The translations under genes and the position numbers were made by a program. From a virus: a stretch of 22,091 bases of DNA. Position 1 is the stretch's first letter. Each line of letters opens with the position of its first letter. The stretch covers positions 1-22,091 of IMG/VR virus record IMGVR_UViG_3300003322_000101; one strand, written 5' to 3'. The notes beneath the pieces were generated by a model, which searched no databases, was not told where the DNA came from, and saw nothing but the letters and a program-made list of their open reading frames with translations. Below, piece by piece: positions 13,483 to 16,184 of the stretch.

Positions 13483-14445
13483 ATGGCACGTTCCACCCCG
13501 ACCGAGGCCGATCTTGGCCTTGCCCCGACTGACGACGAACTGAGCTCCCCCGTTGTTGTGGCAGAGCCGGCAGCAACAGACGACGATATTCCCCTATCCG
13601 ACGACCAACCAGTGTTGACCAAGCCAGGTGACGGCAAGGGCGACGATGCCGACAACAAACAGCCTGGCGAGGGCGAGGGAAAGGCAGCAGAGCCGGCCAA
13701 GCTGGTCGACGTTCGCGCGCTTCAAGAGGCCCGCGCCAACGAGCGGGAGATGCGGCAGCGGGCAACGCTGCTGGAACAGCGCCTCGACGCGGTACTCGCA
13801 TCGCTTCAGCAGCCTGCGACCGCTGCACAGCCGGAAAAGTCAGCGGCGGACGAACTCCCTGGCGAGGAAGATGTTGTCGGGCGCATCAACTGGCTCGTTG
13901 CCCAGATGCAGAAGCAGGGGCAGCAGCAGGCACAGGACCGGCAGGCCAGTGCCGAGCAACAGCAGCGAAGTGAGCTTCAGGGGCGCGTTGCCGCCGTGGA
14001 GCAGCAGTTCCGCGCCACGACGCCAGACTACGACGACGCGATCAACTTCATGGCGGAATCGCGCGACCGTGAGCTACAGATGCTCTATCCGTATTCGACG
14101 GCGGAGCAGCGTTCGGCTTACATCCGTAACGAATGGGCCAGTATCGCCCAAGGCAGCGTGCAGGCTGGGCTGAACGTTGCCGAGCAGGTTTACAATCTCG
14201 CCAAGGCGCGTGGCTTTGCGCCAAAAGCGGCGCCACAGCCCCAGCAGCAGACGGCGCCGGGTTTGGATGCGGCGGCGTTGGCCAGCGCGCAGCAGCGTCA
14301 CCAGAGCCTTTCCGATGCGGGCGGCGGCGAAACTGTCGCGCCTATCGACGCGAAAGCCCTTGCGGCAATGGATGACAAGGCGTTCAACGCCTGGCTCAGC
14401 CAGAAGGGCAACGACAAGAAACTCGAAGCAATCCTTGGCGCCTGA
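13483..14445 (+). CDS. Capsid scaffolding protein (putative)
   Basis: This 320-residue protein lies between portal and major capsid, the usual scaffold position. It is highly acidic and disordered at the N-terminus (about 1-75, rich in Asp, Pro, Ala), followed by coiled-coil-like helices (ALQEARANEREMRQRATLLE) and a Gln-rich region at about 105-175 (KQGQQQAQDRQASAEQQQR). A folded helical part (about 180-245, FRATTPDYDDAINFMAESRD) and a Gln/Ala linker precede a C-terminal helix-turn-helix-like tail (FNAWLSQKGNDKKLEAILG), which in scaffolds often touches the coat protein. The acidic, Gln-rich, helical layout is typical of internal scaffolds. No protease motif is visible. The ribosome site (GAAAGTG) is weak. 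The scaffold call depends on position and composition. Confidence 0.82.
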   Translation: MARSTPTEADLGLAPTDDELSSPVVVAEPAATDDDIPLSDDQPVLTKPGDGKGDDADNKQPGEGEGKAAEPAKLVDVRALQEARANEREMRQRATLLEQRLDAVLASLQQPATAAQPEKSAADELPGEEDVVGRINWLVAQMQKQGQQQAQDRQASAEQQQRSELQGRVAAVEQQFRATTPDYDDAINFMAESRDRELQMLYPYSTAEQRSAYIRNEWASIAQGSVQAGLNVAEQVYNLAKARGFAPKAAPQPQQQTAPGLDAAALASAQQRHQSLSDAGGGETVAPIDAKALAAMDDKAFNAWLSQKGNDKKLEAILGA

Positions 14446-14623
14446 TCTGCCAGTCGGGTGCTTCTGATGGCCTACGCATAGGGGCCTAAAACCGATGCTT
14501 CGGACGCCGGGACCGTAAGACCGGCAACTCCTACTGGCGGCCTTCCAGTGAATGGCCTTCGCCTTGCCCAGCGGGCGTTATCGCGCGGCGCAACCCCAAC
14601 ATTCCCAGCTACAGGAGCTAGAA
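14446..14623 (+). promoter_or_regulatory. Structured leader upstream of the major capsid gene
   Basis: This 178-base non-coding gap is the longest in the late operon. It holds a series of short perfect hairpins: CCTA/TAGG (14471-14482), CCGA/TCGG (14492-14503), GCCGG/CCGGC (14506-14525), ACTGG/CCAGT (14533-14549) and GCCC/GGGC (14566-14576). An ACAGGAG ribosome site before ATG 14624 follows. This could be a cis-acting RNA raising or timing capsid synthesis, a late promoter region, or chance structure in GC-rich DNA. I recall similar leaders before capsid genes in related phages but cannot name a family. Confidence 0.42.
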
Positions 14624-15736
14624 ATGGCCAACACGACCTTTGGTGTCAACGACACCAATGCCGTGAAGCTGTGGGCGAAGCGTCTCGGTTTCCAGATCAT
14701 CTACCGGACTGAGCTTGCCCCGCTGATCGGCGACTCCCCCAACTCCATCATCCACCGTAAGTCGGAAACCTCCAAAGGCACCGGCGACCAGGTGACCTTC
14801 TCGCTAATGACCAAGCTCACGGGCGACGGCTTCACCGAGTCGGAAAAGGCATCGGGCAACGGCGAAAGCCTGAGCATCTATGCCGATGCCGTGGTCATCA
14901 ACGAACTCGGCCACGTCGTATCGATCCCGAACGAAGGCCGTTCGATCGATGCACAGCGCGTCCCGTTCACCCTGCGCGATGCAGGCAAGATGGGGCTGAG
15001 CGGCTGGTGGGATGAGCGCCTGTCCACGATCTTCTTCAACCACGTCTGCGGCTACACCCCGGAGACGCGCGCGAAGTATCGCGGCAACAACACCATCCTC
15101 GCCCCGTCGTCCGGCCGACACATCTGGGTCGACGCCGGAAGCAACAACTCGGACGGCGACGAAAACCTCGCGTCCGACGATGTGTTCTCGCTGCGCTACA
15201 TCGACTATGCCCGTGAGACGGCAGAGACGGCGACCAACCCGGTTCGCCCGATCAACGTTGAAGGCTATGGCGACGGGCAGGACATCTCGGGCGGCAAGTA
15301 CGTCATGTACCTGCATCCCTACCAGGTGACCGACCTGCGCACCAACACGTCGACGGGGCAGTGGCTCGACATCCAGAAGGCGGCTCTCGCCAACGGGCAG
15401 GCCAGTCGCAACCCGATCTACACCGACGCCCTCGGCGAATACAACAACGTGATCCTGCGCAAGGCGAACCACGTCACGCAGGGCGCGAGCTCGGCGGCTT
15501 CCGGCACTGCCGTGACCACCGTTCGCCGTGCGGTGCTGCTCGGGGCTCAGGCTGTGGCCATGGCCAACGGCAAGGGCGGCGGCGCCACCGACTACATGTG
15601 GAACGAGGAACTCGAGGATCACAAGCGCATCCTCGAAATCTCGGTCATGTCCATCTTCGGCATGAAGAAGACCCGCTTCAACAGCGTCGATTTCGGCACT
15701 GTTGTCGTGTCGTCCTATGCCGTGGCTCACACCTGA
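14624..15736 (+). CDS. Major capsid protein, N4-gp56 family (HK97-type fold)
   Basis: This 370-residue coat protein would build the icosahedral head. The N-terminus (NDTNAVKLWAKRLGFQIIYR) and the segments KGTGDQVTFSLMTKLTGDG, RSIDAQRVPFTLRDAGK and GLSGWWDERLSTIFFNHVCG match N4-gp56/DUF4043-type coat proteins. Later features are KYVMYLHPYQVTDLRTN and the C-terminal EDHKRILEISVMSIFGMKKT. The length fits the family (about 350-400). The start is ATG 14624, six bases after ACAGGAG. An in-frame ATG at 14552 lacks a ribosome site and lies in the structured leader, so it is not preferred. High expression is expected and is consistent with the strong ribosome site and the flanking hairpins. Confidence 0.9.
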   Translation: MANTTFGVNDTNAVKLWAKRLGFQIIYRTELAPLIGDSPNSIIHRKSETSKGTGDQVTFSLMTKLTGDGFTESEKASGNGESLSIYADAVVINELGHVVSIPNEGRSIDAQRVPFTLRDAGKMGLSGWWDERLSTIFFNHVCGYTPETRAKYRGNNTILAPSSGRHIWVDAGSNNSDGDENLASDDVFSLRYIDYARETAETATNPVRPINVEGYGDGQDISGGKYVMYLHPYQVTDLRTNTSTGQWLDIQKAALANGQASRNPIYTDALGEYNNVILRKANHVTQGASSAASGTAVTTVRRAVLLGAQAVAMANGKGGGATDYMWNEELEDHKRILEISVMSIFGMKKTRFNSVDFGTVVVSSYAVAHT

Positions 15737-15752
15737 TAGGAGGGCCTGAACA

Positions 15753-16184
15753 ATGGCTACCAACACTGCCGGCGATCCCGGCCAGCTCTACCAGACCAAC
15801 CAGACGCACTACCTCGTGAAGCGCGTCACCTACCTGACGCTCAACGCCACCGGCACCGCCGCCGGCACGGCCAATGCGACTGTGACGGTTGGCTGGCTCC
15901 CGCCCAAGGCACTCGTGCTTCGCGGGTATACCAAGATCATCACCGGCTTCGATGACACCAATGGCGATGACCTCGACATCGGTGTTGCCGGCGACGACGA
16001 CGATCTGTTCGCGTCCGCCGTGGACATGAACACTGCCGCCACGACCGCATTCGATGACCTCGCGACCGCCAACGACTATTCGGCGAGCGCGCGGCGCGTG
16101 ACCTGCAACTTCACCACCGCTCCGTCCGGCAACGGAACGGCGGGTGAAGCGCTGGTCGTGCTCGAATACGCGGTCATTCCGTAA
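15753..16184 (+). CDS. Probable capsid-associated protein (head decoration or similar)
   Basis: This 143-residue protein follows the major capsid with a strong AGGAGGG ribosome site. It is rich in Thr, Ala, Gly and Asp and appears to be a beta-sandwich: LVKRVTYLTLNATGTAAGTA, TVTVGWLPPKALVLRGYTKI and AGEALVVLEYAVIP are alternating strands, separated by acidic loops (DDTNGDDLDIGVAGDDDD). Small proteins in this position in N4-gp56-type phages often cover or stabilise the capsid surface. The acidic loops could bind cations. It may be transcribed at capsid level, as the next hairpin comes only after it. The decoration role is inferred from position and composition. Confidence 0.66.
   Translation: MATNTAGDPGQLYQTNQTHYLVKRVTYLTLNATGTAAGTANATVTVGWLPPKALVLRGYTKIITGFDDTNGDDLDIGVAGDDDDLFASAVDMNTAATTAFDDLATANDYSASARRVTCNFTTAPSGNGTAGEALVVLEYAVIP

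Follow-up and report, generated by a model that had tools for sequence, protein, structure and literature searches.

A predicted chain of tandem pseudoknots before the major capsid gene of alphaproteobacterial phages

What, if anything, is written into an untranslated gap that stands directly before the gene of a major capsid protein? The question is raised by the virus record IMGVR_UViG_3300003322_000101 (22,091 bases, called the window here), in which positions 14446-14623 split a scaffold-like gene from the capsid gene. The upstream neighbour, an open reading frame of 320 amino acids (13483-14445, plus strand) between the portal and capsid genes, has no family match; its putative name rests on position and acidic make-up. 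Such a gene is present in 19 of the 19 compared phages that bear the array of structural units described below. The capsid gene (14624-15736, plus strand) belongs to PF13252 (Phage_capsid_3; E=2.7e-91) and phrog_334. An earlier account, made from the letters of this DNA and called here the sequence-only reading, described the 178-base gap as non-coding and the ribosome site behind it as strong; the gap is indeed non-coding and lies between the two frames, and AGGAG at 14613-14617 (plus strand) is a good site.

Stems in the capsid leader

The sequence-only reading also drew five short hairpins in series across the gap, and took their number and position as signs of a structured RNA leader. All five stems are present letter for letter: CCTA/TAGG at 14471-14482, CCGA/TCGG at 14492-14503, GCCGG/CCGGC at 14506-14525, ACTGG/CCAGT at 14533-14549, and GCCC/GGGC at 14566-14576. 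The number of short stems alone, however, proves nothing, because shuffled sequence folds just as well as the gap (z = +0.56); the folding-energy program cannot form pseudoknots, and folding energy is uninformative in G+C-rich DNA.

We turn to relatives. The comparison drew on 12 near relatives and on over 100 leaders that belong to related capsid genes (PF13252, phrog_334); the hairpin test used 111 distinct leaders. The capsid-protein scan gave 80 loci in IMG/VR and 76 more in GTDB genomes; the closer GTDB loci are mostly Rhizobiales prophages (Rhizobiaceae, Shinella, Methylobacterium, Bartonella, Bradyrhizobium), and Rhizobium phage RHph_Y1_10 is among the named relatives, as is Paracoccus phage KLEP18-1. 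In these two phages, HNH endonuclease genes lie just 5' of the capsid leader, as if inserted (L082:31826-32401 and L083:5945-6523, respectively). The relatives' leaders share a common loop, CGUNA, in hairpins with differing stems, and the strict CGTNA unit is absent from 19 of the 111 leaders. A similar hairpin array, with the loop GGCCUYA, precedes the capsid gene of a divergent capsid lineage in Sphingomonas baiyangensis (L132).

Set against the 12 relatives, the structured leader stands and its shape changes, since covariation points to tandem pseudoknots instead of five serial hairpins. CCTA/TAGG (60% of cells paired) and CCGA/TCGG (halves at 91% and 50%) are not kept as drawn, and GCCC/GGGC competes with a better conserved CGCC/GGCG. 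GCCGG/CCGGC is the sole listed stem kept as a conserved hairpin, and the only one that passes on the MAFFT alignment. ACTGG/CCAGT reaches just 46% on the sequence alignment, but by position it is real, as helix a of the third pseudoknot, with the counterparts ACGGG/CCCGT, CGGG/CCCG, AGCC/GGCT, AGAC/GTCT and AACC/GGTT. Missing covariation or an unconserved gap, which the sequence-only reading had named as fatal to its proposal, were looked for; the helices covary, and the gap is kept before homologous capsid genes. That reading did not see that the helices form pseudoknots, nor that loop 3 carries a conserved UNA.

Pseudoknot units and covariation

Each unit follows the plan of an H-type pseudoknot, with interleaved strands a-b-a'-b' and both helices supported by covariation: strand a, often of the form UU-CG-X, is followed by strand b and then by strand a' (X'-CG), which lies in the loop; a short crossing loop, mostly UNA or UNAN, leads on to strand b'. 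Helix a often has three pairs only, and the leaders of relatives contain one to about five units. The four units of the window, all on the plus strand, span -155 to -35 relative to the capsid start codon; the last ends about 40 bases 5' of the AUG and about 25-30 bases 5' of the ribosome site.

In pseudoknot 1 (14469-14498), helix a joins GGCC 14469-14472 to GGCC 14483-14486, and helix b joins GCAU 14476-14479 to AUGC 14495-14498. Pseudoknot 2 (14501-14525) has CGG 14501-14503 with CCG 14513-14515 as helix a, GCCGG 14506-14510 with CCGGC 14521-14525 as helix b, and UAAGA as loop 3. Pseudoknot 3 (14533-14557) is formed by ACUGG 14533-14537 with CCAGU 14545-14549 and by GGCC 14539-14542 with GGCC 14554-14557, with loop 3 GAAU; it is also recovered by the whole-pseudoknot search. 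In pseudoknot 4 (14560-14589), CGCC 14560-14563 pairs with GGCG 14574-14577 (helix a) and GCG 14571-14573 with CGC 14582-14584 (helix b), loop 3 is UUAU, and helix b is extended by GCC 14566-14568 with GGC 14587-14589.

Both helices of every unit are kept in the 12 near relatives, with 2, 2, 8 and 3 distinct versions of helix a, and 8, 6, 10 and 6 of helix b, in units 1 to 4. Thus, helix b of pseudoknot 1, in a register picked by eye, is replaced by AUGAG/CUCAU, AUGAA/UUCAU, UCCA/UGGA and others; in pseudoknot 4, helix a changes from CGCC/GGCG to CGCU/AGCG, and helix b from GCG/CGC to AGC/GCU, AUC/GAU, UGC/GCA or GUGC/GCAC. The tally of 383 paired cells out of 384 (four units, 12 relatives) was fitted by eye and is a description, not a test. 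In an independent count on the MAFFT alignment, the hairpin version of the structure has 26 double-change cells, compared with 11.3 ± 2.3; the alignment of the last two units, not being structure-aware, was left out.

To avoid circularity, the hairpin test counted all CGTNA sites of the leaders, without regard to the sequence on either side. Four or more contiguous Watson-Crick pairs enclose the loop at 133 of the 228 distinct leader sites (58%), as opposed to 274 of 2876 sites elsewhere in the loci (9.5%; p=1.8e-65), and these hairpins comprise 64 distinct stems, with all four pair types at every position. The strand bias in the leaders is pronounced (74% on the plus, or mRNA, strand and 4% on the minus strand). 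Two further queries added new loci, with 23/59 in the leader and 60/563 elsewhere (p=1.4e-7); their leader minus strand is also raised, at 10/51, duplicates not removed. When IMG/VR was scanned by DNA pattern alone, 13 of 14 loci had a PF13252 capsid gene directly downstream. In the fourteenth (L213, a 371,739-base virus contig) the last-unit pattern stands before an unrelated gene, likely by chance.

Helix a leaves a separate trace, in that the linker base after CG (position X) pairs with the loop base before CG, as in CGCC/GGCG, CGCU/AGCG, CGUC/GACG and CGGG/CCCG. With the nearest upstream YYCG as anchor, and pairing not required, position X is Watson-Crick in 149 of 220 units (CG 77, GC 41, UA 24, AU 7), compared with 72.6 ± 6.2 when partners are shuffled (maximum 92 in 2000 shuffles). 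The next position, Y, is weaker (83 vs 60 ± 5.8). After the leaders are thinned to capsids of less than 55% identity, position X still gives 19/21 against 9.7 ± 1.9; position Y loses significance once thinned below 65% identity. The same helix-a test gives no signal elsewhere in the loci (155 vs 145 ± 10).

A search for whole units, in which both helices and the loop 3 UNA were required, gave 1.46 per leader, compared with 0.137 in dinucleotide-preserving shuffles, 0.126 on the minus strand and 0.063 inside the capsid gene; two or more whole units occur in 46% of leaders and 0.5% of shuffles. The unit was defined after viewing the data, and the shuffles, thinning and controls guard against this. 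Judged from these sequence comparisons, the capsid leader is almost certainly a real conserved structure, and what is conserved is shape rather than sequence: the helices may vary as long as they pair, with the UNA and, in helix a, the C-G pairs as the fixed elements.

Where the array phages are complete, units cluster most clearly at the capsid leader, and other two-unit clusters look like background. There is a second array before the scaffold gene in the phages behind L012 (L203:7774-7854) and L018 (L182:3459-3508), about 1.1 kb before the capsid frame and, in the L018 phage, between the portal gene and the scaffold gene; RHph_Y1_10 has a similar one.

Several known or simpler elements were also considered. 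Rfam 15 has no match in the window, in the leader (E up to 10) or in 16 relatives. A pseudoknot riboswitch, such as preQ1-I, was rejected, as there is no conserved pocket sequence, and only CG..UNA is kept between free helices. A tetrapeptide frame, MAYA (14467-14481), and a minimum-free-energy pairing of 14460-14466 with the ribosome site are not conserved. Sigma-70-like sites occur in 3 of 110 leaders, with no excess, and a promoter in the leader was likewise rejected. In KLEP18-1 (L083), a near-consensus sigma-70 promoter (TTGACA, 17 bases, CATAAT) lies 141-112 bases upstream of the capsid start; since it stands directly before the array, the array would there be the 5' end of a capsid mRNA. 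A limited check of the open literature yielded no description of such an element.

Proposed capsid control and its alternatives

A sister clade of capsids offers a natural counterpart. It includes phages of Burkholderia, Pseudomonas, Erwinia and Klebsiella, together with prophages of beta- and gammaproteobacteria, and it carries a CsrA-like gene between the scaffold and capsid genes (e.g., BcepIL02, Skulduggery, Pavtok and Klebsiella ZX1), mostly with a GCANGA hairpin (L084, L131, L134-L151, L165-L167); L150 and L151 have two CsrA-type hairpins each. This hairpin is found in 25 of 27 leaders, at a median of -45, and the last pseudoknot core of the array phages has its median at -50. The two clades thus have a homologous capsid gene and a small RNA element at a similar distance from the AUG, but one combines the GCANGA hairpin with a CsrA-like protein and the other has a chain of CGUNA pseudoknots without CsrA. 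CsrA was found in none of 29 array-phage records, and the array leaders do not look CsrA-regulated: their units expose CGUNA, where a CsrA target would present GGA in a hairpin, and the CANGA hairpin test scores 16 of 111. In the capsid tree, the array and CsrA clades are parted by one branch with full support, which shows clade separation only, because the labels were assigned by clade and not by leader. Action of CsrA on the capsid mRNA of sister-clade phages would be a candidate role; the paper on phage CSP3 mentions a gene of the CsrA family upstream of its capsid gene but does not connect the two (PMC10269572).

The fixed place, the single orientation, the free helices with kept shape nucleotides, and the RNA-protein alternative of the sister clade together point to post-transcriptional control of the capsid gene. 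The array probably acts as RNA on capsid expression; the chain would work in the mRNA, post-transcriptionally, and so fix how much capsid is made. Most likely, a protein would bind the row of knots cooperatively and alter ribosome loading or the life of the mRNA; we put the array as a protein-binding operator somewhat short of an even chance. With about 25-30 bases between the last unit and the ribosome site, it is not obvious that binding to one unit would block that site directly. No small regulator gene is common to all array phages, whose universal genes are structural or packaging genes, so the best candidates for the ligand are structural proteins, i.e., the capsid or scaffold protein of the phage, a tentative assignment that is rather doubtful at present. 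Small protein clusters obtained with BLAST were rejected as regulators, being mostly shadow frames of other genes. Taken as a whole, control of the capsid gene by a leader pseudoknot chain, most likely a protein-bound operator, has about an even chance of being correct; we infer its function, its ligand and its expression as RNA.

The main rival to a protein-binding operator is a ligand-free stabiliser or nuclease barrier, judged rather unlikely. Compact knots would keep exonucleases away from the 5' portion of the capsid mRNA, or mark a processed 5' end; the capsid mRNA would outlive the upstream operon mRNA, and the conserved UNA would be purely structural. A 5'-3' RNase J is known from alphaproteobacteria. 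Freedom of helix sequence with kept shape nucleotides, variable tandem copy number, an array that stays clear of the ribosome site, and the missing universal small regulator all speak for a stabiliser. However, POI1126 and PBC5, relatives that belong to the other clade and infect Rhizobiales, use a CsrA-type hairpin, so the choice of element does not depend on host nucleases alone.

It is improbable that the hairpins gate transcription before the capsid gene, as sites for pausing, attenuation or antitermination on nascent RNA. Such a gate would be in keeping with Bartonella-type prophages, where an intrinsic-terminator-like hairpin (CCGGCTTTAAGCCGG followed by a T-run) lies 43-49 bases before the capsid start in 15 loci (L114, L116, L122, L130 and 11 within L261-L295), the site of the last pseudoknot elsewhere. 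But terminators need neither a conserved loop nor a pseudoknot, and there is no U-run after the hairpins in the window, nor any G+C-rich stem with a U-run, of terminator or attenuator kind, within 13900-16000.

Less probable still is an element that works as DNA, for example as a packaging site, as a cruciform or as a single-strand promoter hairpin. Wobble pairs do not favour RNA over single-stranded DNA, as the stems have 21 G-U and 19 A-C oppositions and hence no G-U excess, which speaks for a DNA element; it may be, though, that helices as short as 3-5 pairs cannot accommodate wobble. An interleaved pseudoknot, however, cannot form as a cruciform in duplex DNA, orientation and distance from the start codon are fixed, and no phage RNA polymerase of the type that uses promoter hairpins was seen. 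Chance hairpins in G+C-rich DNA, where short stems are common and the folding energy of the gap is ordinary, are practically dismissed by covariation in two interleaved helices, strand bias, the controls, the new loci, and the persistence of hairpins even in AT-rich Bartonella leaders (e.g., L104).

Significance and known systems

The ratio of capsid to scaffold protein must be fixed, and its post-transcriptional tuning in dsDNA phages is poorly known; one capsid family with two RNA elements at about the same site provides a natural comparison for the control of capsid synthesis. A series of H-type pseudoknots in which the helices vary freely and the UNA is fixed appears to be an undescribed RNA architecture, absent from Rfam and widespread in Rhizobiales prophages, and the chain could serve as a tunable leader part. 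As a speculation, to which we give rather low odds, a clade of alphaproteobacterial phages may possess a new evolvable class of RNA operator, a multivalent feedback sensor of capsid assembly that is read by the capsid or scaffold protein and has been swapped, in the sister phages, for a CsrA-like protein with its hairpin at that very site.

Known systems resemble the chain in part. The upstream pseudoknot domain of TMV, a eukaryotic RNA virus, has several H-type pseudoknots in series in the 3' untranslated region, a likeness that implies no homology. The coat-protein operators of leviviruses (MS2, PP7) share with the chain an RNA element at a phage gene and conserved loop nucleotides; each is a single hairpin that overlaps the start site in an RNA phage and is bound by a structural protein, whereas here tandem pseudoknots lie well upstream in a DNA phage, and binding of a structural protein is only a candidate. 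The leader of T4 gene 32 is an autogenous translational operator with one pseudoknot and gp32 as its ligand; the present leaders string together as many as about five pseudoknots, and the gene behind them encodes a capsid protein. The two cases agree in that an H-type pseudoknot precedes the ribosome site by tens of bases, in the mRNA leader of a phage protein that is made late and needed in large amounts; the position upstream of that site, typical of the gene 32 leader, is the one found here.
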